Source of the DNA: Artemia franciscana
Taxonomy: Eukaryota > Arthropoda > Branchiopoda > Anostraca > Artemiidae
Assembly (NCBI RefSeq): GCF_032884065.1
Contig: NC_088863.1
Coordinates: 63,573,604-63,637,603, forward strand
Length of the DNA stretch: 64,000 bases
Reading direction: 5' to 3'
The notes beneath the pieces are model-generated. The model saw only the letters and a program-made list of their open reading frames with translations, had not been told where the DNA came from and searched no databases. This document shows, one piece after another, positions 8,110 through 51,299 of the stretch. The position numbers and the translations under genes were made by a program. Each line of letters starts with the position of its first letter. The stretch's first letter is position 1.

Positions 8110-10013
8110 CGTAAAACTTGCGAATATACAACATTCTTCGCTGTCCAATTGTCGCTGCATATAAATAGATTGTCAGGTTTACCGACCCTCGAACATGCAA
8201 CGTACAATTGTCCATGGGAAAAACAATCAGTATTAAGATCTATACCACATTTTTCTAATGATTGACCTTGAGCTTTGGAATTGCAATCTTTTAAATTGAA
8301 AAGGCAGATCCGTTGGAATCATGGGAATGCGAGGAATAAGAACAAGAACAGCCTCACCCTCAAAAGGCCCTGTCAAGATTGTAGCCTCTATTAGGTTTTC
8401 CATTTTTTTTTTACGGCAAGTCGCGTGCCATTGCAAAGCTTTGGTGGGTTGATATTTCTTAAAAGTATTATTGGTACGCCTATTTTTAGTTGTAGCACGT
8501 GTGGTGGAAACCCTGAAAGATCTATGGACTTTAAAAATTCAGATGGATAATTACCCGCTTCATTTGGTTCAAAAACTGTGTCGACTGACTTGTAAAGGAC
8601 TGCCTGGTCTCGAATCTTGGTCAAAACAATATTGTTGATTTCGTGGACGTCTATATTTTTGGGTGCGAGAATCGCTCTTTCACTTAGCCATTTATTATTT
8701 TTATAATTTTTTAGAATATTCGGAAATACTTTTTCAATCAATTCATTTTTGGACGTCACTAAATTACAGAAATCAGCAGGTAGTTGTATACGTCCTGAAA
8801 TTGAGTCTACTGGGAGCTTTCCGTTTCCAATTGCCAGCAATTGATCTGAAAATGTTTGACCAGAGTCATCGTTTTGCAATCGGACACGCATATTTGTAGT
8901 CAATTTTAATATTTTTACGTGTGCCCATAAATTAGAATTTTTCAGGCAAGCATTCATTTCGTCTGCAGGAGTTGATCTAGGTATTATAGGTAATGTTTGC
9001 CAGAAATCTCCCGCAAGCAATATTAATGTGCTGCCAAAGGGTTTCGACTTCCCTCTCAAATCTTTCAAGCATTGATCCAGAGCCTCGAGCGATTTTTTTT
9101 GTGCCATTGTGCACTCATCCCAAAAAATAAGTTTGCATTGCTGCAATACTTTACCCATTCCAGATGATTTGGAAATATTGCACGTGGGAGTTTCTGTAGA
9201 ATGCAAATTCAGAGGCAATTTCAAAGCGGAATGAGCAGTTCTTCCACCAGGCAGCAATGTTGCGGCTATTCCGGACGACGCAATTGCCAACGCTATATCA
9301 TTTTTTGATCGAACTGATGCCAGAATCAATTTTATCACAAACGTTTTACCAGTACCTCCTGGCGCATCCAAAAAGAAAATTTCTCCAACGTTGTTATCGA
9401 CACAATGCATTATCGTATCATAAATGTCTTTTTGTTCCGACGTTAACTTGGAAATGTTATTTTGTACATACGACAACAGATCACTCGTACTGTAACTTTG
9501 TTCACGATCCAATTCTACACATGTCGAAACAGCAGCGATACGGTTAGGTGAAGGCATTCCCAAATCCTGAAGAGGCTTGTTTGCCATACGTACGCACAAA
9601 TCTTCTATAATAACTAAAGTGTAGTTATAAATTTCTGATGTAAAATCAAAAGTCATATCTGACGTCTCTAACTGTTTTCGATGGAGTATATCTTCGGACA
9701 TTTTTGACTTATATTTTTCCCATAACTCTGTAGGAGCTGATGTAGAGCAAGTTGTTAAAATGATGCCAAACAATGAACGAATTTGACTTGGGGTTGACGT
9801 TTCGCACGTGTCATTGATGCAGTTGTCCCAGTGTTGGTCATTCTCCAATAAATTCAGAGCTTGGCATGCACTACGGTAAGTGTCATGTATAGTACCGTTT
9901 ACAGTTCTGAAATACTCAAAGGATGTCGGACCGGGTACATTCACCAAAAGCAGGCGTAGAAAGAAGCATTCATGTTGATTGGGGTGAACGGTGTAGAGTC
10001 TTCCTATCGTGGT
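8110..10013 (-). pseudogene. Helitron PIF1-like helicase, inverted partial copy
   Basis: The 518-codon frame at 9947-8391 is the longest intact helicase frame in the window. It carries Walker A GGTGKT at residues 197-202 and the Walker B-type WDECTM with acidic D277-E278. It also has the GDFWQTLPI motif and a C-terminal segment reaching GTRLAVKK. A frameshift at a homopolymer near 8400 moves the rest to another frame (8436-8233). There a small deletion removes the segment before KAQGQS, and the final motif VI region runs to about 8110. Helicases of this class unwind DNA during rolling-circle transposition. The Rep half is absent. The copy ends abruptly at 10013, facing the plus-strand element. 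Confidence 0.85.
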
Positions 10014-10015
10014 AT

Positions 10016-12532
10016 CTCTAGTCAGAAAAGAAAGCGTGCCGAGGAATCAAAAGAACAGCAAGGAAACAGGCTTGAGGCTGATAGAGAAAGAAAAAACAGA
10101 AAGCGTGCCGAGGAATCAAAAGAACAGCAAGGAAACAGGCTTGAGGCTGATAGAGAAAGAAAGAACAGAAAGCGTGCCGAGGAACTACCAGAGCAACGCG
10201 AAAGCAGACTTGCTGCTAAAAGAGAAAGTGAAAAAAGAAGGCGTGCCGAGGAATCACAAGAACAGCAAGAAATCAGGCTTGCTGCTGATAGAGAAAGTAA
10301 GAAAAGAAAGCGTGCCGAGGAATCACAAGAACAGCAAGAAATCAGGCTTGCTGCTGATAGAGAAAGTAAGAAAAGAAAGCGTGCCGAGGAATCAGAGCAA
10401 CCTGAAAGTTATCGCCTGACATTCAGGTACAGCCCAGTCGATGATTATAGCTTGAGTAGATGTGTTCAAATCGGGACAATGTCTAAAATTTGTCCCTATT
10501 GCAAGGCCTTGAAATTCAATGGTGAAACAATGGGAATGTGTTGCGCCTCAGGAAAAGTTAAACTTCCTCTATTGGCTGCACCACCAGAGCCATTGAAGAC
10601 TTTCCTTACTGGAACTACGTCAGAATCTGAGCGTTTTTTGTCAAAAATCAGAAAATACAACTCATATTTCCAAATGACGTCGTTTGGAGCCCGAATCGAA
10701 AATCCAGATCAGTTTATGTCTACTTTCAAAGTAAAAGGGCAAATTTATCATAGAGCAGGGTCCCTTCTACCATTCTCAGGCGAGAAACATAAACTTTTAC
10801 AATTGTACTTCATCAGTGATAGAAATTCTGAATTGAATGCACGTTGCGAAATTTCTCCCAAGGTTGAACGGACAATCGTTTCCCAATTGCAACATCTTTT
10901 CCATGAAAATAATAATTTAGTGCGTCTGTTCAAAACAGCCATCGATTTGATGCCAACTGATGCGCATAAAATTGTTATTTCCGCTGACAAAACGCCTCCT
11001 GGCCAACATGTGCGTAGATACAATGCTCCAACTATCGACGACGTGGCAATCGTTATGGTCGGTGATCAGTTTTTACCTCGAGATATTATTCTTCATAAGC
11101 GAAACGCTCAGTTGTTAAGAATTGCTGAAACTCATCGATGCTATGATGCCTTACAATATCCTATCATTTTTTGGGATGCAGCCGACGGCTATCACTTTAA
11201 TCTTAAATTGATGAATCCAGCCACTAACAAAGAAATGAATAAGAAATGCAGTGCAATGCATTATTATTCCAATAGACTAATGATTCGGCAGGATGAAGAA
11301 AATTATATTTTAAAATGCCGTGAATTGTTTCACCAATTTGTCGTTGATATGTATGCTAAAATTGAATCAGAACGTTTGCTATATATCCGCCTGAATCAGA
11401 CCAAGCTCCGCTCTGAACAATACATTCATTTGCGAGATGCAGTTATAAATGACGGTAATACCACAAACGTTGGAAGATTAACAATTTCACCTTCGTCATA
11501 TGCTGGCAGTCCCCGTCATATGCATGAATATGCTCAAGACGTTATTGCGTATGTTCGTCTCTATGGTCGTCCAGATTTATTTATTACATTTACATGTAAT
11601 CAATCTTGGGACGAGATACTGCAGCTTTTACTTCAAGGCCAATCGGCGGTTCATAGGCATGACATTACGGCCCGTGTCTTCCGGCAAAAGTTGAAATCAC
11701 TGATAAACTACATAGTAAAACTTGAAGTGTTCGGGTCAGTGCGATGCTGGATGTACTCAGTGGAATGGCAAAAACGAGGTTTGCCACACGCACATATACT
11801 AATCTGGCTACATAAGAAAATACTTCGAACGAAATTGATGATGTGATTTCCGCTGAAATACCTGATAAAAATGTCGATAAGGGGTTACATGATATTATTG
11901 TAAAAAATATGATACATGGACATTGCGGTGCACTGAACGAAAATTCACCATGCATGGCCAAAGGAAGGTGCACAAAGCAATATCCTCGACTTTTAGTATC
12001 AAAGACAATTACTGGCAATGATGGTTACCCACAATATAGAAGAAGATCTACTGAAGATGGCGGTAAAACAGCAATAATAAAAAAGCGTAACGGTACCACC
12101 ATCGAAGTAGATAACCAGTGGGTTGTTCCATATTCCCCATTATTATCAAAAACATTTAATGCACACATAAACGTTGAATGCTGTAACTCCGTAAAGGCAA
12201 TCAAATACATATGTAAATACGTCAACAAAGGCAGTGACATGGCAGTTTTTGGCTTGCAGCCCGAAATCAAAGATTTCGACGAAATCGTACAATATCAGGC
12301 TGGAAGATACATAAGCAGTAATGAAACTGTTTGGCGAATTATTTCATTTCCGATACATGAACGTAGTCCAGCTGTTGTTCACTTAGCGGTACGTTTACAG
12401 AATGGTCAACGTGTTTATTTCTTGGAAACCAACGTGCAACAAAGAGCCCTGAATCCACCGGATACAACATTAACAGCTTTTTTTTCGCTTTGCAAAAATG
12501 ATTCTTTTGCAAAAAAAACTGCTGTATACTGA
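10016..12532 (+). pseudogene. Helitron Rep (HUH endonuclease) region, copy 1
   Basis: The frame starts inside the N-terminal basic repeats (about six 23-residue units, 10016-10400), having lost its natural start at the inverted junction. It then has a Cys-rich CPYCKA segment and Rep motifs: FTCNQSWDEI near 11595, the HUH motif in GLPHAHILIW near 11780-11810 and, in the next frame, KYICKYVNKG near 12205-12235 with the catalytic tyrosines. A one-base frameshift near 11820 splits it into 9972-11846 and 11843-12532. The first 44 bases of that open frame belong to the inverted copy, so the frame is accidentally chimeric. In the family, Rep nicks and joins DNA ends. This copy cannot make a continuous protein. 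Confidence 0.88.
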
Positions 12533-14156
12533 AGTGCCTTCGTATTACACGTGGAATACTACAAATAAAGTATTTGAACGTCGAAAACAGAATAAGTCAG
12601 TCGACGGCCAACCTACCATCTTCAAAGATACCACGATAGGAAGACTCTACACCGTTCACTCCAATCAACATGAATGCTTCTTTCTGCACCTGCTTTTGGT
12701 GAATGTACCCGGTCCGACATCCTTTGAGTATTTGAGAACTGTAAACGGTATTATACATGACACTTACCGTAGTGCATGCCAAGCTCTGAATTTATTGGAG
12801 AATGACCAACACTGGAATAACTGCATCAATGACGCGTGCGAAACGTCAACCCCAAGTCAAATTCGTGCATTGTTTGGCATCATTTTAACAACTTGCTCTC
12901 CATCAGCTCCTACAGAGTTATGGGAAAAATATAAGTCAAAAATGTCCGAAGATATACTCCATCGAAAACAGTTAGAGACGTCAGATATGACTTTTGATTT
13001 TACAGCAGAAATTTATAACTACACTTTAGTTATTATAGAAGATTTGTGCGTACGTATGGCAAAAAACCTCTTCAGGATTTGGGAATGCCTTCACCTAACC
13101 GTATCGCAGCTGTTTCGACATGTGTAGAATTGGATCGTGAACAAAGTTACAGTACGAGTGATCTATTGTCGTATGTACAAAATAACATTTCCAATTTAAC
13201 GTCGGAACAAAAAGAAATTTATGATACGATAATGCATTGTGTCGATAACAACGTTGGAGAAATTTTCTTTTTGGATGTGCCAGGAGGTACTGGTAAAACG
13301 TTTGTGATAAAACTGATTCTGGCATCAATTCGATCAAAAAATGATATAGCGTTGGCAATTGCGTCGTCCGGAATAGCTGCAACATTGCTGCCTGGTGGAA
13401 GAACTGCTCATTCCGCTTTGAAATTGCCTCTGAATTTGCATTCTACAGAAACTCCCACGTGCAATATTTCCAAATCATCTGGGATGGGTAAAGTATTGCA
13501 GCAATGCAAACTTATTATTTGGGATGAGTGCACAATGGCACACAAAAAATCGCTCGAGGCTCTGGATCAATGCTTGAAAGATTTGAGAGGCAAGTCGAAA
13601 CCCTTTGGCAGCACATTAATATTGTTTGCGGGAGATTTCAGGCAAACCTAGATCAACTCCTGCAGACGAAATGAATGCTTGCCTGAAAAATTCTAATTTA
13701 TGGGCACACGTAAAAATATTAAAATTAACTACAAATATGCGTGTCCGATTGCAAAACGATGACTCTGGTCAAACATTTTCAGATAAATTGCTGGCAATTG
13801 GAAACGGAAAGCTCCCAGTAGACTCAATTTCAGGACGTATACAACTACCTGCTGATTTTTGTAATTTAGTGACGTCCAAAAATGAATTGATTGAAAAAGT
13901 ATTTCCGGATATTCTAAAAAATTGTCAAAATAATAAATGGCTAAGTGAAAGAGGGATTCTCGCACCCAAAAATATAGACGTCCACGAAATCAACAATATT
14001 GTTTTGACCAAGATTCGAGACCAGGCAGTCCTTTACAAGTCAGTCGACACAGTTTTGGAACCAAATGAAGCGGTTAATTATCCATCTGAATTTTTAAATT
14101 CCATAGATCTTTCAGGGTTTCCACCACACGTGCTACAACTAAAAATAGTCTATTAA
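12498..14156 (+). pseudogene. Helitron helicase region, copy 1
   Basis: It continues the Rep copy in three frames: 12498-13127, 13046-13651 and 13626-14156. Lesions are a shift in the poly-A run near 12515, another in the A-run near 13060 (RMAKKPLQ), and a small deletion at GDFRQT that loses the following LPII. Walker A GGTGKT (near 13285) and WDECTM (near 13520) remain. The frame ends at LKIVY, where a second Helitron 5' end begins, so the last helicase motifs are missing. Every one of these lesions is shared with 17606-19264. Confidence 0.87.
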
Positions 14157-14325
14157 ATATAATATAAAAATAAGTTGTCTGTCTGTGGATCAGGTGACGT
14201 CATGTTTCTGTGTCGACTGACGTCATGAAGTTAGTTGTCGTCATTTTTGCTATGACGGTGACGTCATTAAAGATATTTCAGGACATATATGTTCACGTAG
14301 AAATCTATTAATGTTAGAGTTTACA
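14157..14325 (+). mobile_element. Helitron 5' end, copy 2
   Basis: AT-rich start then ATAAGTTGTCTGTCTGTGG, the conserved 5' terminal segment of this Helitron family, leading to the first ATG at 14326. The first bases (TATTAAATATAATA) form the empty site that is filled by a Helitron in the paralogous block at 19265. Confidence 0.75.
14195..14266 (+). promoter_or_regulatory. Three TGACGTCA palindromes upstream of Helitron ORF
   Basis: Exact copies lie at 14195-14202, 14218-14225 and 14259-14266, within 135 bases of the Rep frame's first ATG. The set repeats at about 21271-21342 and, on the other strand, at 7613-7684. They match the CREB/ATF site. Use as a promoter element is inference. Confidence 0.5.
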
Positions 14326-16253
14326 ATGACTGATGAACTTACAATGGCAAAAGCCGATGAAGATGCTCAAAGAGTCTATGCCAAAAAACTTGCTGCTGAT
14401 AGAGAAAGTCAGAAAAGAAAGCGTGCCGAGGAACTACCAGAGCCACATGAAACCAGACTTGCTGCTTAAAGAGAAAGTGAAAAAAGAAGGCATGCCGAGG
14501 AACTACCAGAGCAACATGAAACCAGACTTGCTGCTAAAAGAGAAAGTGAAAAAAGAAGGCGTGCCGAGGGATCACAAGAACAGCAAGAAATCAGGCTTGC
14601 TGCTGATAGAGAAAGTAAGAAAAGAAAGCGTGCCGAGGAATAAGAGCAACCTGAAAGTTATCGCCAGGCATTCAGGTACAGCCCAGTCGATGATTATAGC
14701 TTGAGTAGATGTGTTCAAATCGGGACTATGTCTAAAATTTGTCCCTATTGCAAGGCCTTGAAATTCAATGGTGAAACAATGGGAATGTGTTGCGCCTCAG
14801 GAAAAGTTAAACTTCCTCTATTGGCTGCACCACCAGAGCCATTGAAGACTTTCCTTACTGGAACTAGGTCAGAATCTAAGCGTTTTTTGTCACAAATCAG
14901 AAAATATAACTCATGTTTCCAAATGACGTCGTTTGGAGCCCAAATCGAAAATCCAGATAAATTTATGTCTACTTTCAAAGTAAAAGGGCAAATTTATCAT
15001 AGAGCAGGGTCCCTTCTACCATTCTCAGGCGAGAATAATAAATTTTTACAATTGTACTTCATCAGTGATAAAAATTCTGAATTGAATGCATGTTGCGAAA
15101 TTTCTCCCAACGTTGAAAGGACAATCGTTTCCCAATTGCAACATCTTTTCCACGAAAATAATAGTTTAGTGCGTCTGTTCAAAACAGCCATCGATTTGAT
15201 GCCTACCGATACGCATAAAATTGTTATTTCCGCTGACAAAACGCCTCCTGGCCAACATGTGCGTAGATACAATGCTCCAACTATCGACGAAGTGGCAATT
15301 GTTATGGTCGGTGATCAGTTTTTACCTCGAGATATTATTCTTCATAAGCGAAAGGCTCAGTTGTTAAGAATTGCTGAAACTCATCGATGCTACGATGCCC
15401 TACAATATCCTATCATTTTTTGGGATGGAGCCGACGGCTATCACGTCAATATTAAATTGATGAATCCAGCCACTAACAAAGAAATGAATAAGAAATGCAG
15501 TGCAATGCATTATTATTCCTATAGACTAATGATTCGGCAGGATGAAGAAAATTATATTTTAAAATGCCGTCAATTGTTTCACCAATTCGTCGTTGATGTG
15601 TATGCTAAAATTGAATCAGAACGTTTGCTATATATCCGCCTGAATCAGACCAAGCTCCGCTCTGAACAGTACTTTCATTTGCCAGATGCAGTTATAAATG
15701 ACGGTAATACCACAAACGTTGGAAGATTAACAATTTTACCTTCGTCATATGCTGGCATTCCCCGTCATATGCATGAATATGCTCAAGACGTTATTGCGTA
15801 TGTTCGTCTCTATGGTCGTCCAGATTTATTTATTACATTTACATGTAATCAATCTTGGGACGAGATACTGCAGCTTTTACTTCAAGGACAATCGGTGGTT
15901 CATAGACATGACATTACGGCCTGTGTCTTCCGGCAAAAGTTGAAATCACTGATAAACTACATAGTAAATTTTGAAGTGTTTGGGTCAGTGCGATGCTGGA
16001 TGTACTCAGTGGATTGGCAAAAACGAGGTTTGCCACACACACATATACTAATCTGGCTACATAAAAAAATTACTTCGAACGAAATTGATGATGTGATTTC
16101 CGCTGAAATACCTGATGAAAATGTCGATAAGGGGGTTACATGATATTATTGTAAAAAATTTGATACATGGACCTTGCGGTGCACTGAACGAAAATTCACC
16201 ATGCATGGCCAAAGGAAGGTGCACAAAGCAATATCATCGACTTTTAGTATTTT
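14326..16253 (+). pseudogene. Helitron Rep region, copy 2 (truncated)
   Basis: It begins MTDELTMAKADEDAQ and reads through four basic 23-residue units, with in-frame stops after LAA (near 14467) and after RAEE (near 14641). A long frame (14701-16143) carries the CPYCKA segment, FTCNQSWDEI and the HUH site. The HUH site reads GLPHTHILIW here, with T in place of the hydrophobic A of copy 1. An extra G near 16133 shifts the frame. At 16253 the Helitron sequence stops and repeat R begins, so the rest of Rep and all of the helicase are absent. The same truncation occurs in copy 3 (21401-23327). Confidence 0.87.
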
Positions 16254-16728
16254 TTATTAGAGTTCATACTTTTCTGACAATTTTAGTCTTTATTCGAATA
16301 TTTTAGGATTACCAGAAAAGGAAATACTAACGAAGAGCTCTAAACTGACGGGGCTAGCCATTATATACGTCCAACGAAATATTGAGATAGACATCGACCA
16401 TGTAATAGATAAATATGGCGGGAGTGGAAATACAAAAAATAGACTTTTTCTTATAAAATTCTGAATACTGTAAGTTAATTGAAATATATTGAACTTTTAA
16501 TAGTGGTAAGATACGCTACGTTGTTATGAAATAAAATTTTGATTACTAAATTTTTGAGATTTCATGAAAGTTGGCACTGTTTATTAAAACACTATTTTTA
16601 AAAAGAAAAAGTAATTAGCTAAATGCTTTATTGCCTATACTTAAAACACTCGTTTTAAATGTCTTTTATGCATTTCTATATCTTCGTTCTGTTTTTATTG
16701 TTACATTCCTAAAATAACAAGTATTTAA
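16254..16728. repeat. Three-copy repeat R, copy 2
   Basis: Matches 463-953 and 23328-23818 closely; one short deletion near 16345 removes GAGAGGACTC-type sequence present in the other copies. It is followed at 16729 by the TC of the same small Helitron insertion. Confidence 0.8.
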
Positions 16729-16918
16729 TCTATGTATATATATAAAAAAAAGTTGTCTGTGTGTGTGTGGGCCTGTCGGGTGACGTCATGTTTGTCGACT
16801 GACGAAATTACAGACCGGGACATCGGGACGCAAATGACGACCGGGACATAGGGAATATAAATGACGACCGGGACACTCAAAGAGAAAGCGACCGGGACAC
16901 AAGGAATGTTCGATTAGA
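16729..16918 (+). mobile_element. Small Helitron interrupted by assembly gap
   Basis: Starts TC after GTATTTAA, as at 954 and 23819, and carries a TGACGTCA palindrome and minisatellite units. The sequence then runs into the N gap, so its 3' end is unknown. Confidence 0.75.
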
Positions 16919-17018
16919 NNNNNNNNNNNNNNNNNNNNNNNNNNNNNNNNNNNNNNNNNNNNNNNNNNNNNNNNNNNNNNNNNNNNNNNNNNNNNNNNNN
17001 NNNNNNNNNNNNNNNNNN
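16919..17018. other. Assembly gap (100 N)
   Basis: Exactly 100 N, the usual placeholder for a gap of unknown size. It falls exactly between two near-identical blocks, where assembly is least reliable. Confidence 0.98.
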
Positions 17019-17640
17019 GATACATGGACATTGCGGTGCACTGAACGAAAATTCACCATGCATGGCCAAAGGAAGGTGCACAAAGCAATATCCTCGACTT
17101 TTAGTATCAAAGACAATTACTGGCAATGATGGTTACCCACAATATAGAAGAAGATCTACTGAAGATGGCGGTAAAACAGCAATAATAAAAAAGCGTAACT
17201 GTACCACCATCGAAGTAGATAACCAGTGGGTTGTTCCATATTCCCCATTATTATCAAAAACATTTAATGCACACATAAACGTTGAATGCTGTAACTCCGT
17301 AAAGGCAATCAAATACATATGTAAATACGTCAACAAAGGCAGTGACATGGCAGTTTTTGGCTTGCAGCCCGAAATCAAAGATTTCGACGAAATCGTACAA
17401 TATCAGGTTGGAAGATACATAAGCAGTAATGAAACTGTTTGGCGAATTATTTCATTTCCGATACATGAACGTAGTCCAGCTGTTGTTCACTTAGCGGTAC
17501 ATTTACAGAATGGTCAACGTGTTTATTTCTTGGAAACCAACGTGCAACAAAGAGCCCTGAATCCACCGGATACAACATTAACAGCTTTTTTTTCGCTTTG
17601 CAAAAATGATTCTTTTGCAAAAAAAACTGCTGTATACTGA
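17019..17640 (+). pseudogene. Helitron Rep C-terminal part, block B
   Basis: It corresponds base for base to 11911-12532 at a constant offset of 5,108, with only a few substitutions. It includes KYICKYVNKG. The N-terminal part is lost in or beyond the N gap. Confidence 0.87.
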
Positions 17641-19264
17641 AGTGCCTTCGTATTACACGTGGAATACTACAAATAAAGTATTTGAACGTCGAAAACAGAA
17701 TAAGTCAGTCGACGGCCAACCTACCATCTTCAAAGATACCACGATAGGAAGACTCTACACCGTTCACTCCAATCAACATGAATGCTTCTTTCTACGCCTG
17801 CTTTTGGTGAATGTACCCGGTCCGACATCCTTTGAGTATTTGAGAACTGTAAACGGTATTATACATGACACTTACCGTAGTGCATGCCAAGCTCTGAATT
17901 TATTGGAGAATGACCAACACTGGAATAACTGCATCATTGACGCGTGCGAAACGTCAACCCCAAGTCAAATTCGTGCATTGTTTGGCATCATTTTAACAAC
18001 TTGCTCTCCATCAGCTCCTACAGAGTTATGGGAAAAATATAAGTAAAAAATGTCCGAAGATATACTCCATCGAAAACAGTTAGAGACGTCAGATATGACT
18101 TTTGATTTTACAGCAGAAATTTATAACTACACTTTAGTTATTATAGAAGATTTGTGCGTACGTATGGCAAAAAACCTCTTCAGGATTTGGGAATGCCTTC
18201 ACCTAACCGTATCGCAGCTGTTTCGACATGTGTAGAATTGGATCGTGAACAAAGTTACAGTACGAGTGATCTATTGTCGTATGTACAAAATAACATTTCC
18301 AAGTTAACGTCGGAACAAAAAGACATTTATGATACGATAATGCATTGTGTCGATAACAACGTTGGAGAAATTTTCTTTTGGGATGTGCCAGGAGGTACTG
18401 GTAAAACGTTTGTGATAAAATTGATTCTGGCATCAATTCGATCAAAAAATGATATAGCGTTGGCAATTGCGTCGTCCGGAATAGCTGCAACATTGCTGCC
18501 TGGTGGAAGAACTGTTCATTCCGCTTTGAAAATGCCTCTGAATTTGCATTCTACAGAAACTCCCACGTGCAATATTTCCAAATCATCTGGGATGGGTAAA
18601 GTATTGCAGCAATGCAAACTTATTATTTGGGATGAGTGCACAATGGCACACAAAAAATCGCTCGAGGCTCTGGATCAATGCTTGAAAGATTTGAGAGGCA
18701 AGTCGAAACCCTTTGGCAGCACATTAATATTGTTTGCGGGAGATTTCAGGCAAACCTAGATCAACTCCTGCAGACGAAATGAATGCTTGCCTGAAAAATT
18801 CTAATTTATGGGCACACGTAAAAATATTAAAATTAACTACAAATATGCGTGTCCGATTGCAAAACGATGACTCTGGTCAAACATTTTCAGATAAATTGCT
18901 GGCAATTGGAAACGGAAAGCTCCCAGTAGACTCAATTTCAGGACGTATACAACTACCTGCTGATTTTTGTAATTTAGTGACGTCCAAAAATGAATTGATT
19001 GAAAAAGTATTTCCGGATATTCTAAAAAATTGTCAAAATAATAAATGGCTAAGTGAAAGAGGGATTCTCGCACCCAAAAATATAGACGTCCACGAAATCA
19101 ACAATATTGTTTTGACCAAGATTCGAGACCAGGCAGTCCTTTACAAGTCAGTCGACACAGTTTTGGAACCAAATGAAGCGGTTAATTATCCATCTGAATT
19201 TTTAAATTTCATAGATCTTTCAGGGTTACCACCACACGTGCTACAACTAAAAATAGTCTATTAA
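17606..19264 (+). pseudogene. Helitron helicase region, block B
   Basis: It is colinear with 12498-14156 (offset 5,108) and carries all the same frameshifts and the same small deletion after GDFRQT, plus one private stop (YK* at 18046). Walker A and WDECTM are preserved. Shared lesions mean the element was already dead before the block was copied. It ends at LKIVY, immediately before the Helitron at 19266. Confidence 0.87.
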
Positions 19265-19369
19265 ATCTATATATATATATAAATAAGTTGTCTGTCTGTG
19301 GATGTGTGGATGGGTCAGGTGACGTCACCTGAAAAAACTGGATCAGGTGACGTCAAAACTGAAAAAACT

Positions 19370-20690
19370 AAAAAAAAGGCAAAAACTACAAAAAAAACTA
19401 AAAACTAATAAAAAAAATAAAAAAGCTAAAAAACTAAAAAAACTATAAAGGTAAAAACCAATAAAAAACTAAAAAAAAAACTGAAAAAACTAAAAAAAAG
19501 GCAAAAACTACAAAAAAAAACTAAAAACTAATAACAAAAGTAAAAAAGCTAAAAAACTAAAAAAACTAAAAAAACTAAAAAAAGGTAAAAAACTAAAAAA
19601 AATAAAAAATAAAAAAAAAATAAAAAAAAGGAAAAAACTGAAAAATAAGCTAAAATAAAGGTAAAAACCAATAAAAAACTAAAAGAAAAAAAGGAAAAAA
19701 CTAATAAATGACGACACTCAAAGAGAAAGCGACCAGGACAAAAGGAATGTTCGATTAGCAATCAACAAAGCACCGGGACACAGGGAGTATAAATGACGAC
19801 CAGGACATAAGTAAAAAAAAAAACTATCTATATATATATAAATAAGTTGTCAAACTAAAAAAAGGCAAAAACTACAAAAAAAACTAAAAACTAATAAAAA
19901 AGCTAAAAAACTAAAAAAACTAAAAAAAAGGCAAAAACTACAAAAAAAACTAAAAACTAATAAAAAAATAAAAAAGCTAAAAAACTAAAAAAACTAAAAA
20001 AACTAAAAAAAGGTAAAAAACTAAAAAAACTAAAAACTAAAAAAAACTAAAAAAAAGGAAAAAACTGAAAAATAAGCTAAAATAAAGGTAAAAACCAATA
20101 AAAAACTAAAAAAAACTGAAAAAACTAAAAAAAGGCAAAAACTACAAAAAAACTAAAAACTAATAAAAAAAGTAAAAAGCTAAAAAACTAAAAAAACTAA
20201 AAAAACTAAAAAAACTAAAAAAAGGTAAAAAACTAAAAAAAATAAAAAATAAAAAAAAACTAAAAAAAAGGAAAAAACTGAAAAATAAGCTAACATAAAG
20301 GTAAAAACCAATAAAAACTAAAAAGAAAAAAAGGAAAAAACTAAAAAAAATTTTCATCTAAAAAACTAAAAAAAAACTAAAAAAGGTAAAAACTAAAAGA
20401 ACTAAAAAAGAAAAAAATAAATGACGACACTCAAAGAGAAAGCGACCAGGACAAAAGGAATGTTCGATTAGCAATCAACAAAGCACCGGGACATAGGGAG
20501 TATAAATGACGACCAGGACATAAGTAAAAAAAAAATTAACAAAACTAAAAAGAAGGTAAAAACTACAAAAAAACTAAAAAGAAAAAAAAACTAAAAACTA
20601 ATAAAAAAACTAAAAAATCTAAAAATCTAAATAAACTAAAAAAGAAAAAAAAAGGAAAAAAATAAAGGAGAAAAACAAAACTAAAAAACG
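19370..20690 (+). repeat. A-rich CTAAAAAA tracts within Helitron
   Basis: Three tracts (about 19370-19700, 19850-20420 and 20530-20690) consist of irregular units such as AAAAACTAAAAA and AAAGGCAAAAACTAC. They are separated by near-identical patches containing GACGACACTCAAAGAGAAAG (19705-19810 and about 20420-20525). The patches show that a block of about 700 bp was duplicated inside the element. The antisense frames rich in F are artefacts of composition. Confidence 0.8.
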
Positions 20691-21186
20691 AATGTATATA
20701 CAGACCGGTACACCGGGATACAAATGACGACCGGGACACAGGGAATATAAATGACGACCGGGACACAGGGACACAACTACAACGGGGACACCGGAGGAAA
20801 CAGGGGGATGTAAATGACGACCGGGACACCGGGACAGGGAATGGTCGATTAGCAATCACCATCAACAAAGCTCAAGGGCAATCATTAGAATCATGAGGTA
20901 TAGATCTGAATACAGATTGTTTTCCCATGGACCATTATATGTTGCATGTTCAAGAGTCGGTAAACCTGACAATCTATTTATATGCAAAGACAATGGGACA
21001 GCAAAGAATGTTGTATATTCGCAAGTTTTACGTAGTTAAAACCATATATATATATATATATCTATCTATATTCACAGGTGGGACATAGGGACACAACTAC
21101 AATGGCGCGTAACTATTATGGCGCGTAACGACTTACGCGCGCGGGGGGGCTCGGGGGGTGGCGCGAAGCGCCCCCACCAACTAGGT

Positions 21187-21221
21187 GTTGGGGTGGCGCG
21201 AAGCGCCACCCCAACAGCTAG
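21187..21221 (+). other. Helitron 3' terminal hairpin and CTAG end
   Basis: Arms GTTGGGGTGGCGC and GCGCCACCCCAAC pair perfectly around a three-base GAA loop, followed by AGCTAG and host T. In Helitrons this hairpin is the transposition terminator. The same structure lies at 1494-1528 and, on the minus strand, at 7751-7786. Confidence 0.85.
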
Positions 21222-21400
21222 TATAATATAAAAATATATATAAAAATAAGTTGTCTGTCTGTGGATCAGGTGACGTCATGTTTCTGTGTCGACTGACGTC
21301 ATGAAGTTAGTTGTCGTCATTTTTGCTATGACGGTGACGTCATTAAAGATATTTCAGACATATATGTTCACGTAGAAATCTATTAATGTTTAAGTTTACA

Positions 21401-23327
21401 ATGACTGATGAACTTACAATGGCAAAAGCCGATGAAGATGCTCAAAGAGTCTATGCCAAAAAACTTGCTGCTGATAGAGAAAGTCAGAAAAGAAAGCGTG
21501 CCGAGGAACTACCAGAGCCACATGAAACCAGACTTGCTGCTTAAAGAGAAAGTGAAAAAAGAAGGCATGCCGAGGAACTACCAGAGCAACATGAAACCAG
21601 ACTTGCTGCTAAAAGAGAAAGTGAAAAAAGAAGGCGTGCCGAGGGATCACAAGAACAGCAAGAAATCAGGCTTGCTGCTGATAGAGAAAGTAAGAAAAGA
21701 AAGCGTGCCGAGGAATAAGAGCAACCTGAAAGTTATCGCCAGGCATTCAGGTACAGCCCAGTCGATGATTATAGCTTGAGTAGATGTGTTCAAATCGGGA
21801 CTATGTCTAAAATTTGTCCCTATTGCAAGGCCTTGAAATTCAATGGTGAAACAATGGGAATGTGTTGCGCCTCAGGAAAAGTTAAACTTCCTCTATTGGC
21901 TGCACCACCAGAGCCATTGAAGACTTTCCTTACTGGAACTAGGTCAGAATCTAAGCGTTTTTTGTCACAAATCAGAAAATATAACTCATGTTTCCAAATG
22001 ACGTCGTTTGGAGCCCAAATCGAAAATCCAGATAAATTTATGTCTACTTTCAAAGTAAAAGGGCAAATTTATCATAGAGCAGGGTCCCTTCTACCATTCT
22101 CAGGCGAGAATAATAAATTTTTACAATTGTACTTCATCAGTGATAAAAATTCTGAATTGAATGCATGTTGCGAAATTTCTCCCAACGTTGAAAGGACAAT
22201 CGTTTCCCAATTGCAATATCTTTTCCACGAAAATAATAATTTAGTGCGTCTGTTCAAAACAGCCATTGATTTGATGCCTACCGATACGCATAAAATTGTT
22301 ATTTCCGCTGACAAAACGCCTCCTGGCCAACATGTGCGTAGATACAATGCTCCAACTATCGACGAAGTGGCAATTGTTATGGTCGGTGATCAGTTTTTAC
22401 CTCGAGATATTATTCTTCATAAGCGAAAGGCTCAGTTGTTAAGAATTGCTGAAACTCATCGATGCTACGATGCCCTACAATATCCTATCATTTTTTGGGA
22501 TGGAGCCGACGGCTATCACGTCAATATTAAATTGATGAATCCAGCCACTAACAAAGAAATGAATAAGAAATGCAGTGCAATGCATTATTATTCCTATAGA
22601 CTAATGATTCGGCAGGATGAAGAAAATTATATTTTAAAATGCCGTCAATTGTTTCACCAATTCTTCGTTGATATGTATGCTAAAATTGAATCAGAACGTT
22701 TGCTATATATCCGCCTGAATCAGACCAAGCTCCGCTCTGAACAATACATTCATTTGCGAGATGCAGTTATAAATGACGGTAATACCACAAACGTTGGAAG
22801 ATTAACAATTTTACCTTCGTCATATGCTGGCATTCCCCGTCATATGCATGAATATGCTCAAGACGTTATTGCGTATGTTCGTCTCTATGGTCGTCCAGAT
22901 TTATTTATTACATTTACATGTAATCAATCTTGGGACGAGATACTGCAGCTTTTACTTCAAGGACAATCGGTGGTTCATAGACATGACATTACGGCCCGTG
23001 TCTTCCGGCAAAAGTTGAAATCACTGATAAACTACATAGTAAATTTTGAAGTGTTTGGGTCAGTGCGATGCTGGATGTACTCAGTGGAATGGCAAAAACG
23101 AGGTTTGTCACACACACATATACTAATCTGGCTACATAAAAAAATTACTTCGAACGAAATTGATGATGTGATTTCCGCTGAAATACCTGATGAAAATGTC
23201 GATAAGGGGTTACATGATATTATTGTAAAAAATATGATACATGGACCTTGCGGTGCACTGAACGAAAATTCACCATGCATGGCCAAAGGAAGGTGCACAA
23301 AGCAATATCATCGACTTTTAGTATTTT
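21401..23327 (+). pseudogene. Helitron Rep region, copy 3 (truncated)
   Basis: It is colinear with copy 2 at an offset of 7,074-7,076 and shares its two N-terminal stops and its truncation at repeat R. The main frame is 21776-23380 (534 codons), longer than in copy 2 because the extra G is absent. Its last residues are translated repeat R. The HUH site reads GLSHTHILIW, so both the P and the A of copy 1 are changed. Three TGACGTCA sites lie upstream (about 21271-21342). Confidence 0.87.
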
Positions 23328-23818
23328 TTATTAGAGTTCATACTTTTCTGACAATTTTAGTCTTTATTCGAATATTTTAGGATTACCAGAAGAGGAAATA
23401 CTAACGAAGAGCTCTAAACTGAGAGGACTCTAGACTGACTGGGCTAGCCATTATATACGTCCAACGAAATATTGAGATAGACATCGACCATGTAATAGAT
23501 AAATATGGCGGGAGTGGAAATACAAAAAATAGACTTTTTCTTATAAAATTCTGAATACTGTAAGTTAATTGAAATATATTGAACTTTTAATAGTGGTAAG
23601 ATACGCTACGTTGTTATGAAGTAAAATTTTGATTACTAAATTTTTGAGATTTCATGAAAGTTGGCACTGTTTATTAAAACACTATTTTTAAAAAGAAAAA
23701 GTAATTAGCTAAATGCTTTATTGCCTATACTTAAAACACTCGTTTTAAATGTCTTTTATGCATTTCTATATCTTCGTTCTGTTTTTATTGTTACATTCCT
23801 AAAATAGCAAGTATTTAA
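23328..23818. repeat. Three-copy repeat R, copy 3
   Basis: Near-identical to 463-953, including the region missing from copy 2. It is followed by the same small Helitron. Confidence 0.8.
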
Positions 23819-24290
23819 TCTATGTATATATATAAAAAAAAGTTGTCTGTGTGTGTGTGGGCCTGTCGGGTGACGTCATGTTTGTGTGTTGACTGACGTC
23901 ATGTTTGTCGACTGACGAAATTACAGACCGGGACATCGGGACGCAAATGACGACCGGGACATAGGGAATATAAATGACGACCGGGACACTCAAAGAGAAA
24001 GCGACCGGGACACAAGGATATAGATCTGAATACAGATTATTTTTCCCATAGACAATTATATGTTTCATGTTCAAGAGTCGGTAAACCTGACAATCTGTTT
24101 ATATACACAGGCAATGGGACAGCCAAGAATGTTGTATATTCGCAAGTTTTACGTAGTTAAAAGTATATGTATATATATATCTATATTCACAGGTGGGACA
24201 CAGGGACACAACTACAATGGCGCGTAACTAATATGGCGCGTAACGACTTACGCGCGCGGGGGGGCTTGGGGGGAGCGCCCCAACAGCTAG
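23819..24290 (+). mobile_element. Small Helitron, 472 bp
   Basis: TC at 23819 and CTAG at 24287-24290, inserted between the same A and T as the 954-1528 element. Compared with that element it lacks part of the helicase remnant (near 24015) and most of the 3' hairpin (near 24270). Loss of the hairpin after insertion implies the copy is fixed in place. Confidence 0.83.
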
Positions 24291-24474
24291 TGTTTAATAT
24301 TTCTTTTACAAATATACAAGTTGCGTCCTCATCCTCATTTCCACTCTTCACTACAATCATAGTTACTAAACGAGCATACAATGTTAGGCGACATGCTAAA
24401 TGGTTTGACCTATACAAATTGTCACAAAGAGTTCATGATCCCAAAAAATGGTTCATGACCAATTCTATTTTCAA
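24291..24474 (+). pseudogene. Second copy of unidentified exon-like frame
   Basis: Matches 1529-1710 closely but lacks TA in the TTCCTACTCTTC segment, shifting the frame. The match ends near 24474, where sequence unrelated to the first copy begins with a short hairpin (GAGGCAC/GTGCCTC). Confidence 0.5.
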
Positions 24475-25700
24475 GGAGGCACACTCGTGCCTCTATAAAG
24501 AGGCGAACCACGACAATGTTAAGCGATCTTCGGTTCCAGTGGTTGCAGAGGGATGGGGAGGGATGCATTTCGTAGCCCGAGCTCCAACTAAGAAACCTGC
24601 CAAATTTCATCCCCCTCCGACTTTTCCTTCATGGGGAAAATCTGGCCGAAAGTTTCGACCCACCAACCCTAGCCCCCCTTTAACGTTGTCCGATCGGGCT
24701 GAAATTCACAAGTTAACGTCCCCTAGGGCACAGGAGCTTATCCACGAGATTTCAGCTCGATCCGATAACTCCTTCCCTGTTTTCCAGAAACCACGCATAG
24801 CCACTTAATTTTCATGTTCTTTTTTTTCTGCCACACCTACAGGTCACAGCCGACATCGGATCTGGGTGTACGAAGACTCATTCGATGCGAAATTCTCCGA
24901 GTAAGTTTCCTTGAAAGTTTCGTAGGAAAATCATAACCCCCCGAAAGTTTCGACCCCCAACCCCACCCCCCCCCCCTTTAACGTTGTCCGATCGGGCTGA
25001 AATTCACAAGTTAAGGTCCCCTACGACCCAGGAGCTTAACCACGAAATTTCAGCTCGATCCGATAACTCCTTCCCTGTTTTCCAGAAACCACGCATTAGC
25101 TACTTAATTAACCCATTTCTCCATAAGAGCCCATTTTAATTTGAAATTTTTAAAAGATATTTAAAAGTTATATTTACACACATGCAGGTGGTTAGGTCAG
25201 TCGGTAGAGCGTGGGACTTTTAATCCTCGGGTCAATGGTTCAAGTCCCTTATCGGGCGTTTTTTTTTTCACAAAATATGAAAATAACTTCGTTTTCTTAA
25301 AGAGTTAAAGAGGCTGCGTCCCAAAGTCGAACCTGAAAACGTACAGGAATGTACGAAGGGTGTACGAAGACTCATTCGACGCGGAATTCTCCGAGTAATT
25401 TTCCTGGAAAGTTTCTTTGGGAAATCTTAACCCCCCGATTTTCTAGCTTAGAAAAACCCATTTCCCCATAAGAGCCCATGTTAATTTTTGAAATTCTTAA
25501 AAGTTACGAATATCAACATTCAAGTACATCAAAATAATCAGCTCGGCACGGCGAGAATGACTGCAAGCATCATAAAAATCCAGCTCCATTCCAGAATTGT
25601 AGAAAAACGTACAGAAACAATATGAAAAAAACTTCGTTTTCTTAAAGAGTTAAAGAGGCTGCGTCCCAAAGTCGAACCTTAAAACGTACAGGAATTAGGA
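24475..25700. repeat. Composite repeat with internal duplications
   Basis: It starts with a GAGGCAC-ACTC-GTGCCTC hairpin. A segment containing ACGTTGTCCGATCGGGCTGA is present at 24640-24805 and again at about 24935-25105. Another (AGGCTGCGTCCCAAAGTCGA) is at about 25310-25350 and 25655-25695. No coding frame looks real; the open frame running through 24167-24808 is a read-through of repeats. Confidence 0.65.
25183..25258 (+). tRNA. tRNA-Lys(TTT)-like pseudogene
   Basis: It has an A-box-like GTCAGTCGGTAGAGC, an anticodon arm with loop CTTTTAA (anticodon TTT, Lys) and a B-box GGTTCAAGTCC. The 3' acceptor strand reads ATCGGGCG and a T run follows as a Pol III terminator. The 5' acceptor strand (GCAGGTG) does not pair with the 3' strand and the T stem has a mismatch. 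I judge it a tRNA pseudogene or SINE head, not a working tRNA. Confidence 0.6.
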
Positions 25701-31512: not shown

Positions 31513-34070
31513 CTGAGAAAGAAATAGAAATTAATCGATATCGAAAAGTCAATACGGCAAGTTTGGTGCTGAAAATCTCTGTTTTACAAAGGACACAAAC
31601 GAAAGAGTACTCCCACCCTAATTATAACTATTGAAAAATATCAAATACATGTATTCATTCGCTTCAAATGCTTCAGCAAACACAGTCAACACTGTTACTC
31701 AACGAGCATCTTTGTTCGCACGTTTTGTTGGAGCGCAGATGGGGAATTCTCCACCAGAGGATACAAGGTTGGCAGAAAACTTTGATGAGTCTTAGAATCA
31801 GTAGAAACATCGTATCTTTGGGAAGTTAAACATTTGTGCAGATTACAATTCATTTCATTTGTTGTTTTTTTTTCAAGTGAAATTTTGAACATATACCTAA
31901 TTGATTATAAGGATTGAAAAAACTATAAGCAACGACCCATGCATCTAGATGCTGAATAGAATGCATGAATTAATCCGCTTGAAAGGCTTAAGTAAAGGCA
32001 ATTAACATTTTTGGGAAGCACAGAGCCTGAAGATTATATCTAAGGGAAGCAGGGGTTAGCTGATAATTTATATTTTTCCTAAAGAGGGGAGCAAGGCTTC
32101 AAACCAATCTTTGGAAGAGGAAAATTTTCTTTACCACATCTCAGTAATTTATTTATACATTTACATTTCTTACATTTCGTATACTTACGCTTATTCTTCA
32201 GCCATCAGTGGATGGACACGTGCAGTTACACGAAAATTTGAATTATGGGAATTTGAATTAATTAAACGACTACTCGCTTCAATTAATATTTCTGGCATTA
32301 GCTTAACCCCTTATTCACAAAGTGTCTCCATCATTCTTAGAGGTGTACAGTTGTAACACAGCCGATGAACATACTAGAATCCATTGAATTGGAGTTGGTA
32401 TTCCATAGGAGTTGAAAGAAGCTTAAGTTAAAAAGTACTTGAAAGACCATGCCTTCAATAGAGTTATTGATTAGGAAATTCAGTTCAAATCCCAATAGCA
32501 AAATAATTGAAAGATAGAATTAATAATAATTCAGTATTTGATAATAAAATATAATTAATTATTGATTAATAAATAATTAAATTGATAAAATTATTAATAA
32601 ATTTTATGATTAAATAAACTAAATTAATAGATTAACTGATTAAGAATAAAGCATCAATAAACTAATTGAATTAATTAAATAAATAAGATATAAATTATGT
32701 AGAACAAATACAGATACAAGGAAATATTTTATACCAGCATTACGCCAAGCAACTATGAAACATAATCCCCCTCCACAGCCCTGTCTGAACTGATTCAGTG
32801 GCTAGTCTTAATTGGCTATTTATGAATTGTTGAGCATAGTGTGAATAACGTTGGCTTGGCGTCTTCGAATTATAACATACATAACTTAGTTAGGCGAATC
32901 ACAATTTTTGCATAAGCTTGCTGAAATATAGAATCTATCTAAGGTATAAAATGGCACTTATCTTGCATTCTTAAACCCCTTTAAATGGTTCCTGGGAGGG
33001 TGTAAAGAGGGAAGCCGTGAATAAATTAGGTTGGAGGAGGAGCGTGCGTAGCTGTGTTGGCCTCAAGCGTTTTGGTGCTGCAGTGAGTTATTAGTAGTAG
33101 TAGTAGTAAATCAAGGGTTAGTTTTATAAAATCTTTAATTTTATATATGAAAGAATCAGACTCGTACTTCAAAACTAATGAACAGGATAGCCTGTTAATA
33201 TCAAAGTGCTAAGCTGCTTGTAGACGACACGTTAGAAAAGCTCCTTGTCTGCCCTCCCTCCTCCATTTGAAAACTTCTGCACAGGTTGCCTTTCATGTAA
33301 TTCCAATTCCTCTTTTAATATTTTTGTATAAGCCTCGTTGATTTATGTTACTCACGTAATAATGCAAGATAATAAAGCATGAAGCCTCGTTCAGAAAACG
33401 AATGGGTTTCTGGGTATACCACTTGTTGATCTTGTATAAATTTATATTTCTTCCCAGCGCATGTTAACTTTTTATCAGCTCTATAGTCATCTGCCTAAAC
33501 TCCTTAGTATTTTGCCATTTTTTACATCCAAATAAACTAACTATCATCTTCGTAACATAAATCATTTTATGTTTATTTTATTTTCAGTTTCCTTTTAACC
33601 CATCTCTTAGGTCAGTTTTCAATTCTGTAAAAGCCAGTCATATAAATGGGATATAATCAGTTCAAAAGTTGCACTTGTTTGGTCTCTTTAAAAAATCACA
33701 AAAAAAAGGATTTGTTCTATTTTTTTATTTTTCCAGATTGACTGGACCGTTTAGTTATTGCATTTTATGTCATAGCTCTTTTTCCTCTCTATTTCTCTGA
33801 GATACTGTTCAAATGACACGGATGTTTCCACCTCCTTTACATACCATTGAGGCTTAACGGGGTTAAATCTAAAGAAAAATTAAGCGTTACTTTTTTCTAA
33901 GAACTGTTTGAACTGTTCAGGTGCCAATCTGACAGGTCCATTCTTTAAAATCTGTCAAAGCAGCTGCTTGACTTTTGTTTATATACAATCATAAGGTTGT
34001 TGTTTAAAATATAAAAAGAATATCACTATGGACAATCTTTTTTTCATTTTGATTGCTGTTTGTTTCAAAA
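31513..34070 (-). other. SPRTN intron 3, proximal part
   Basis: Non-coding, AT-rich, including a TAAT-rich stretch (about 32510-32700). The only identifiable item is a LINE 3' end at 32988-33110. Intron 3 as a whole is 31513-53209 (21,697 bases). Confidence 0.65.
32988..33110 (+). mobile_element. 3' end of an RTE-like LINE
   Basis: About 120 bases match the terminal coding segment of the LINE at 52750-52880 (GGAGGAGCGTGCGTAGCTGT then GGCCTCAAGCG) and end in a TAG/GTA trinucleotide tail. A severely 5'-truncated insertion is the usual outcome of LINE target-primed reverse transcription. Confidence 0.75.
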
Positions 34071-35565
34071 CAGTTCGTGGTAACTAACTAAGGAGTGAGG
34101 AGTGACCTGGCTCAATAGTAACCAAAACTCTAAAAAACAGAATTTTGATACCAATAGCTACATCAAAAGAATCGCTTTTAATGTTGATTTTAAATATATA
34201 AGTTTCATCAAGTTCAGTATTACCCATCAAAAGTTACGAGCCTGAGAAAATTTGCCTTCTTTTAAAAAATAGGAAGAAACACCCCCTAAAAGTCATAGAA
34301 TCTTAACGGAAATCACACCATCAGATTCAGCGTATCAGAGAACCCTACAGTAGAAGTTTCAAGCTCCTATCTACAAAAACGGGGATTTTGCATTTTTTGC
34401 CACAAGACAGATCACAGATGCGTGTTTATTTGTTTGTGTGTTTTTGTTTTGTTTTTTCCCCAGGGGTGATCGTATCGACCCAGTAGTCCTAGAATGTTGC
34501 GAGAGGGCTCATTCTAACGGAAATAAAAAGTTCTAGTGCCCTTTTTAAGTGACCAAAAAAAATTGAAGGGGACCTAGGCCATCTCCAACGCTAATTATTT
34601 TCCAAAAGTCACTGGATCACGGGGATTTTTGGTTGGGAAGTAGGGGTTGAGAAGAGAGGGATATGCTGGGGAAACTTTCCATGAAGGGATTTGTCAGGTG
34701 GGAAGAAAATTTTCATATAGGGAGCGTAGGATTTTCTAGCATTATTAAAAAAAAACAATGAAAAAATAAATATGAAAAAGCTTTTTCAACTGAAAGAAAG
34801 GAGCAGCATTAAAACTTAAAACGAACAGAAATTATTACGCATATGATGGGTTCACATCCTCCAAATACCTCGATCTTTACGCTAAAGTATTTTTAGTAAT
34901 TTCAACTATTTATTCTACGGCCTTTGTGATTCAGGGGTCATTCTTAAGGAATTGGGACAAAATTTAAGCTTTAGTGTAAAGAGCAAGGTACTGACGAGGG
35001 GATGAACCCCCTCATATACTTAATAAAAACATTCAAATACAGAAGTCCGTTACGTAAGCTGATTCGTAAGTTACGTATATCTCTTACTAATAAAAATGTT
35101 CGTAGAAAATTAAAAGTTCTAGTTGCCTTTTCAAGTAACCAAAAAATTGGAAGGCAACTAGGCCTCCTCCCCCACATCTTTTTTTCTCAAAATCATTCGA
35201 TCAAAACTATGAGAAAGCCATTTAGCCTACAAAATAAATATGCAAATTTTGTTTTAATTATTGATCTGCGGAGAGCCAAAATCAAAAATGCATTAATTCA
35301 CGAACGTTCGGAAATTAAACAAAAAAGAGTTTTTTTTTTATCTGAAAGTAAGGAGCGACATTAAAACTTAAAATGAAAAGAAATTGCTTCGTATATGAAA
35401 GGGGTTGCTCCCTCGTCAACGCCCCGCTCTTTACGGTAAAGTTTTTAACTGTTTTAAAGAGTAGTGTTGAGAGAAACAGTCAATCTTTAGCGTAAAGAGC
35501 GGGGCATTGAGGAGGGAGCAACCCCTTTCATATACGAAGTAATTTCTGTTCGTTTTAAGTTTTAA
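34071..35565 (+). repeat. Hairpin repeat family, copy A
   Basis: Starts CAGTTCGTGG, as in copies B and C, but the small 5' palindrome is decayed. It contains the family's two hairpin modules; the second spans about 35330-35562. More diverged than B and C, so older. The open frames within it are not conserved between copies. Confidence 0.8.
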
Positions 35566-36464
35566 TTATGAACAGAGTCAAAGTACAGATTAGGGTTTTT
35601 GCACAGGGTAGAAACACCAAATAATACTGAAGGAAGCAAAGGAAAAGGAACGGAGGCTAATCTGTCACCAATAATGAGTTAGACAGTACCCACGTATCCG
35701 AAGTCAATGGGAGGTCAAATTTTCAGTGTATTATGTTAAGGCTTCCAGGAAATGCTCAGAGGGATATTGGACCAAATCTAAAAACACTATGTATATCCAT
35801 ATTTTAAAAAGAGCGTATCAGCAATGACTCAGGAACGCTAAAGGTATTATAAGTTGAGACTTTCGAAGAAAGTTGAAGGGCATTCTCGGACTAAATCCAA
35901 AGATACAATGTACATCAAAGTAGTTAAAAGAGCATATCTAAATCCCTGGAACGATTGAAACTTTCAGACAATCACTAAGATATGCTGAACTAATTCAAGA
36001 CATTCAAAACGAAGTATTTACAATATCTCAGAACAAAGAGTACAAAGCTAAAATTTTTAAATAATTGTGAAGGCGAAGTTAAAAAAAATCAAAAGACACT
36101 AAATCCAATTATCAAGTAAAACAAAATAATTAATTAAAAATTACAGGGAACAGAAATTATCAAAAACATGAATAGCGTTGCCATTCTACCCCTAAGCCTT
36201 TCAAAAGTTATTGCGCCTTTTTCATTTTACTGACAAACAAATACATTTTAATAATTTTTTTTTCGCATTTAAAACACAAAAATCAAAAATCCAATATAAA
36301 CGTTGAGCTTCAGAGGTTTCCAGGAATTTAAATCATTATACATTAAATACTCAGTCTATTCACTCATCACCTCTATTCTTTCTAGTCATCTTACCAAATC
36401 ATATTTTTTTATTATTTAATTTTTATTTCTTTTCTTACTGTTTTATTTTATTTTATAGCGTTTC
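35566..36464. other. Unassigned intronic sequence
   Basis: AT-rich sequence between two hairpin repeats. I see no gene or recognisable element. Confidence 0.5.
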
Positions 36465-38170: not shown

Positions 38171-38312
38171 TAATTTAATTATTATAATAAACTGTTCAAA
38201 AACTAATCTATAATATGAAATACAGTTTTGATTGGTCCATTGAACGAGTAAGACCTCTATGTGCTCCGTGCCGAAATATAGTTTATTTCAGTGGAAAGAA
38301 TTAGTTTTCAAA

Positions 38313-39960: not shown

Positions 39961-40081
39961 TATTTAATATTGTAAAGGATTGATTGAAAGTATTCGAATA
40001 CATTTTGAATGTATTGTACGCTGGTAACATCGCGGGTAAACAATCTTTGCAAATTTAGGTGATATTTGGTTATTGTTAGAG

Positions 40082-48780: not shown

Positions 48781-48804
48781 GAAGATGAAAGAGCTAAGAG
48801 CTCA

Positions 48805-51240: not shown

Positions 51241-51299
51241 TCTGCAAGATGAAAGAAGATAGGATAATAGTGAAATATTGTACTGGCCTGTTAATAAAT

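Follow-up and report, generated by a model that had tools for sequence, protein, structure and literature searches.

The window (the whole 64,000-nucleotide stretch of Artemia franciscana DNA analyzed here) carries a recent non-autonomous Helitron insertion together with its exact empty site. The event is ordinary in kind and comes with an assembly caveat, since the filled and empty sites lie in two near-identical blocks on either side of a scaffold gap. The element is a young canonical Helitron that would have been moved in trans by a Rep-helicase of its own family. Its landing point was probably an A|T within the TA-rich 5' end of an older resident Helitron, and the "empty" block most likely represents the second allele of this locus. 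The features concerned are as follows.

19266 to 21221, + strand: non-autonomous canonical Helitron, 1,956 bp, TC...CTAG, between A and T in block B
14151 to 14169, + strand: empty target site in block A, with the insertion point between 14157 and 14158
14148 to 14200, + strand: target junction, where helicase sequence broken at about 14150 is joined to the resident Helitron 5' end
9972 to 14150, + strand: older Rep-helicase Helitron in several frames, cut short in its helicase part
21222 to 23324, + strand: resident Helitron (5' end and Rep part), with the element inserted in its 5' end; the block A equivalent is 14151 to 16250
11911 to 16918, + strand: block A, the tail of the sequence left of the gap
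16919 to 17018, no strand: scaffold gap of 100 N, the sole N run in the window
17019 to 24018, + strand: block B, the head of the sequence right of the gap; block A sequence plus the Helitron

Both sites were read directly, and the bounds, TC and CTAG ends, A|T target, and terminal hairpin that the initial annotation had given the Helitron proved exact to the base. The filled site runs TATTAAA | TCTATATATA (from 19266) ... CCCCAACAGCTAG (to 21221) | TATAATATAAAA. The proposed empty site was likewise found in block A, where 14151 to 14169 reads TATTAAATATAATATAAAA without the element. This 19-mer occurs once in the window at up to 2 mismatches (mean expectation from shuffling, 0.01). Within the element, we distinguished the following parts.

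19266 to 19300, + strand: 5' terminus, starting TCTATATATATATATAAATAAGTTGTCTGT; a very common form in the genome is TCTATATATATAAAAATAAGTTGTCTGT
19355 to 20688, + strand: A-rich minisatellite filler, with periods of ∼9 and others up to 213
20848 to 21039, + strand: helicase C-terminal remnant (end of the coding sequence), a 90% match to the end of the 1,579-codon frame of locus L055 (see below)
21153 to 21184, + strand: upstream imperfect hairpin-like module with its own CTAG end, read by eye
21181 to 21221, + strand: 3' terminal palindrome with a CTAG at each end, a GAA loop, and a single G/G mismatch

The element thus has a 5' TC, a 3' CTRR terminus, an A|T insertion without target-site duplication, and a 3' palindrome, as canonical Helitrons do, and its 5' end beyond the TC is TA rich. 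The terminal hairpin (21140 to 21221) folded as DNA at −35.5 kcal/mol, against −19.1 for shuffled sequences (standard deviation [sd], 2.3; z, −7.0). The upstream module is perhaps an older or spare terminator; no element copies ending at its CTAG were seen among 43 matches, 41 of which run into the second hairpin while 2 are diverged. Examination of frames of at least 150 codons revealed none of transposase length within the element. It must therefore be moved in trans, and its description as non-autonomous was borne out. From knowledge of the family, we infer that the mode of transposition would be rolling-circle copy-and-paste.

The closest parallel in anatomy is Helibat1/Helraiser as described in PMC4778049, with which the element shares the 5' TC, the 3' CTAG, insertion between A and T without duplication, and a 3' hairpin; the likeness extends to a preference for AT-rich targets and a Rep-helicase with a PIF1-like helicase. 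Unlike Helraiser, whose 19-bp palindrome lies 11 nt upstream of the end in that account, the element has a 14-bp inner stem that stops 5 nt short of the terminus, a second CTAG before the stem that can pair with the terminal CTAG, and a body that is mostly A-rich minisatellite. The canonical definition in PMC4067079 likewise places the palindrome ∼11 bp from the 3' end, compared with 5 nt here. Insect Hel1, compared through its general features as described in PMC6544945, is similar in being non-autonomous, with TC and CTRR-type ends, an A|T target, a 3' hairpin, and autonomous partners. Assignment to Helentron/DINE-1 was considered and rejected on two grounds. The TT insertion with boundary T runs given for that group in PMC4067079 contrasts with A|T in 26 of the 31 element rows described below, and a Pfam scan of a single full-length frame, that of L055, returned no endonuclease family at an E value of ≤0.001.

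A search of the 1.27-Gb genome gave at least 132 matches to the element, many of them at 98 to 99% identity (40 scored of 2,275 candidate stretches). The initial annotation had proposed a genome search for further copies with different flanks, and many close copies do lie at other loci. Some copies form a second size class, in which element bases 1300 to 1563 are duplicated in tandem. The termini were compared in 31 element rows drawn from 26 loci out of 28 (all but L011 and L018), taking as the 5' end the last TC within 30 nt before a conserved motif; 4 of the 31 rows couple a second 3' end to a 5' end that was already counted, and L003 and L019 represent one duplicated locus. The base after CTAG was T in all 31 rows. 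TC was preceded by A in 26 rows and by T in 3; the remaining 2 have G at this position and are perfect head-to-tail joins. By eye, copies in non-repetitive flanks (L012, L016, L022, and L025) showed no other ends and no target-site duplications.

These junctions also bear on whether the element in block B is a misassembly, in which a multicopy Helitron was joined in through the TA-rich 5' end common to the element and the resident. The element does have many near-identical copies in the genome and a 5' end similar to that of the resident, and such sites are hard to assemble. However, the element meets its flanks precisely, as A|TC on one side and CTAG|T on the other, at identical target bases, as in other copies, and we regard this explanation as extremely improbable.

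In the 532 bp of non-repetitive sequence at the 3' end, 2 to 6 substitutions separate the window copy from 26 of the 28 other rows (15 and 44 for the remaining two), in agreement with the earlier claim of recent movement. Across all 29 rows (406 pairs), the same 532 bp differ by a median of 0.38% (mean, 1.07%). Because this median is of the order of the difference between blocks A and B, the spread of the family is, as judged from these sequences, recent. In the genome, there are 28,969 exact matches (14,508 + 14,461) to a 28-nt 5' end, of which the window copy carries a variant, and 26,931 (13,362 + 13,569) to an 18-nt 3' end; reversed control patterns of both ends gave 0 occurrences in the genome. 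These counted termini are common to elements of many sizes, beyond the window element.

Autonomous copies were also sought in the window itself and were rejected as candidates, as the Rep/helicase sequence at 9972 to 14156 and in blocks A and B is frame-broken or cut short. In the genome, a 624-aa Rep frame gave 36,249 first-look candidates, of which 71 were scored; apart from the window's own copy, these were 95 to 97% identical. The longest open frame among the scored matches reaches 1,594 codons, and some of the frames contain a stop. Of two matches that were fetched, L055 and L054, the former is a complete element running from AAA|TC (754) to CTAG|T (6491), 5,738 bp in length. Its frame of 1,579 codons, stop to stop, holds no N and contains an HxH motif (QKRGLPHAH), KYICKY, and GGTGKT, with the Pfam domains Helitron_like_N, PIF1, and Pif1 2B. 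The two-tyrosine motif is a feature of Helitron Rep proteins. L055 combines a Rep with a PIF1 helicase and has motif 2 with L, in line with the rule given for the Helitron type in PMC4067079. The L055 and window elements are 91% identical over the 3' 242 bp and 86% identical over the 5' 62 bp, and these similar ends suggest that an L055-like protein may be the element's partner. In L054, the 5' end is fused to the CTAG of a preceding copy and the 1,594-codon frame crosses a 100-N gap, so that its wholeness is uncertain. Eight pattern matches to Rep relatives in viral contigs were obtained, none of which was confirmed.

Given an intact 1,579-codon Rep-helicase frame between similar ends, a recent source for the element is plausible. 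The initial annotation had held that an active source exists or recently existed; an intact source frame is indeed present, and such a source may have been active recently. More broadly, with exact Helitron termini in the tens of thousands and one or more intact Rep-helicase frames between matching ends, this genome may contain a living system in which Helitron movement could be studied.

When the insert is set aside, alignment of blocks A and B shows 15 substitutions over 2,247 bases to the left of the insertion point and 21 over 2,758 bases to its right; 3 of the latter fall within A's final 13 bases, opposite a ∼60-bp deletion in B. With these last 13 bases of A omitted, the divergence is 33 in ∼4,990 (0.66%), within the 1% or less previously judged by eye. 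The ∼60-bp deletion was itself judged by eye against a third copy at ∼1148 to 1222, and the other indels between the blocks are of 1, 1, 16, and 23 bp, apart from one close to the insertion point. There, near its right side, block B has 12 extra bases relative to A. The aligner split this difference into two gaps, one of 13 bp at the junction and one of 1 bp. However, a single mismatch-free 12-bp gap can be placed at any position 4 to 15 bp rightward of the junction, and the difference therefore looks like a separate indel between short direct repeats.

The 12 bp present in B and absent from A are the one observation in favor of a secondary empty site, from which the element would have been lost by deletion or excision. 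Against such a loss, the target is perfectly reconstituted at the junction in A, the 12-bp gap fits between short direct repeats 4 to 15 bp away, and Helitrons make no target duplication that would permit precise deletion (PMC4778049). Thus, we consider it very unlikely that block A ever held the element.

The homology between the blocks begins at 11911 in A and at 17019 in B, the first base past the gap, and on the A side extends to 16905. Of the 13 bases of A that separate this point from the gap, 12 agree with the third copy near 1151. Moreover, among 21 genome matches to the empty-site region, only A and B span the junction of broken helicase and resident 5' end. The other 19 end at query base 100 to 110; of six that were fetched, L033 to L037 continue into normal helicase sequence and L038 is rearranged. 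Homology abutting both edges of the gap and a junction found in A and B alone among these matches fit the overlapping contig ends of two haplotypes. The listed marks of false duplication also include a gap that separates the members of a duplicated pair within one scaffold (PMC9516828), and A and B are such a same-scaffold pair with an assembly gap between them (the heterotype form). We therefore think it probable that blocks A and B are two haplotypes of one locus whose overlapping contig ends were left unmerged. Two contigs of different haplotypes would overlap by ∼5 kb (7 kb with the insert) and would have been joined end to end through the 100-N gap, and the Helitron insertion would then be heterozygous, a segregating polymorphism.

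This reading changes two statements of the initial annotation. The description of A and B as two separated blocks 5 kb apart is probably wrong, as their homology runs from gap edge to gap edge save for the ∼60-bp indel. Of the claim that the element moved after the blocks separated, the recent movement stands; if A and B are allelic, what was taken for separation is instead polymorphism between alleles. More generally, what looks like a paralogous empty site next to a scaffold gap may be the other allele, which alters any inference of age and duplication history.

It is important to note that several observations run against the allelic reading. Of three 100-N gaps examined (the third over 5.4 and 2.5 kb only), just the window's has overlapping ends, and a 5,100-N gap on C19 is without overlap at its edges; unmerged overlaps are thus not universal in this assembly. 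The nested Helitron repeats of the locality are a setting in which real duplication and contig breaks are both common, and the 12-bp difference 4 to 15 bp from the site means that A falls short of a perfect ancestor of B's flank. A and B could instead be a real tandem segmental duplication of at least 5 kb, one copy of which the Helitron entered later, with the gap as an assembly break inside the repeat. Near-identical colinear blocks on one scaffold, the richness of the region in repeats, and the two other 100-N gaps without overlapping ends are consistent with this, as is a second near-identical pair on C11, 185 kb apart (L003 and L019), that could be a real duplication. A tandem duplication with its joint in the gap gives the same overlap, but that joint must fall just inside the gap, whereas alleles need no extra duplication. 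We hold a tandem duplication to be rather unlikely, and the preference for alleles, as the simplest reading, is an argument from simplicity. A candidate unique haplotype marker at 24480 to 25480 was rejected as a dispersed repeat (40 scored of 1,989 candidates).

L003 and L019 (C11:41571490-41576440 and C11:41386254-41390813) are one Helitron locus present twice at 99.5 to 99.7% identity, differing by an internal duplication; the pair is either a retained haplotype or a recent segmental duplication.

Turning to where copies land, all 37 distinct 3' junctions in L001 to L028 read CTAG|T, where identical contexts and flanks of <60 nt had been dropped beforehand and the loci were selected by element similarity. 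Another Helitron 5' end lies within 80 bp downstream at 15 of these 37 junctions, and at least 8 TA repeats follow at 12. Insertion directly before or within the 5' end of another copy is frequent in the family. In the window (L001) and in L005, L010, and L013, a left stub and a right remainder sum, by eye, to a Helitron 5' end; the element thus seems to have entered the first bases of a resident copy at these loci. L008 holds a run of TCTA-like stubs. An unselected stretch, the initial 5.3 Mb of C1, contains 96 exact 3' ends, 8 of which are followed within 100 bp by an exact 5' end on the same strand; when the 3' ends were shifted by up to 5 kb, 500 trials gave 1.27 on average and 5 at most. 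The same 5.3 Mb contains 2 head-to-head pairs of 5' ends no more than 100 bp apart (shifted mean, 0.21; maximum, 3 in 500). With 8 head-to-tail against 2 head-to-head, the same orientation prevails among neighboring ends but is not absolute. Opposite-strand 5' ends just downstream of a 3' end (0 of 96) are uninformative, as this layout is nearly impossible by geometry.

Copies at or just upstream of another's 5' end are also described for FoHeli in Fusarium and for a Metarhizium case (PMC5148889); unlike the FoHelis, which are Helitron2-like in that account, the Artemia elements are canonical, and the frequency of the layout here is 15 of 37 junctions at selected copies and 8 of 96 in the unselected 5.3 Mb. 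A tentative and, in our view, doubtful proposal is that copies are drawn to the TA-rich 5' termini of elements of their own family, usually in matching orientation. Each such insertion would leave a TCTA-like stub of the resident on the upstream side, and successive rounds would build head-to-tail arrays and seed (TCTA)n/(TA)n microsatellites. Rolling-circle products are also able to give arrays (PMC12628747). Helraiser favors AT-rich targets, most strongly on the 3' side (PMC4778049), and an AT-rich target preference may suffice to explain landing in 5' ends.

Perfect CTAG|TCTATATATA head-to-tail joins between Helitrons are present in L008, L017, L021, and L054. Within the window, one further sequence is present in three copies (462 to 1710, 16253 to 16917, and 23327 to 24471), and every copy has a small Helitron 5' end at a shared position (AAGTATTTAA|TCTAT). 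Because this end is at an identical place in all three, the sequence seems to have been duplicated after its small Helitron insertion.

The window also holds, at 3527 to 5566 on the − strand, an uninterrupted, intronless 679-aa frame for Cse1 (the importin-alpha re-exporter), which matches approximately the N-terminal 670 residues of the solved protein (960 residues) and is either a retrocopy or an intron-poor gene. At 34062 to 39975 are two 1.6-kb copies (97% identity) ∼1.79 kb apart and a third, partial copy (85 to 91%), with near-palindromes of 300 bp in the two and 207 bp in the third; these repeats are possibly another mobile element or a satellite. Finally, diverged direct repeats with a spacing of ∼290 bp occupy 47411 to 51265.
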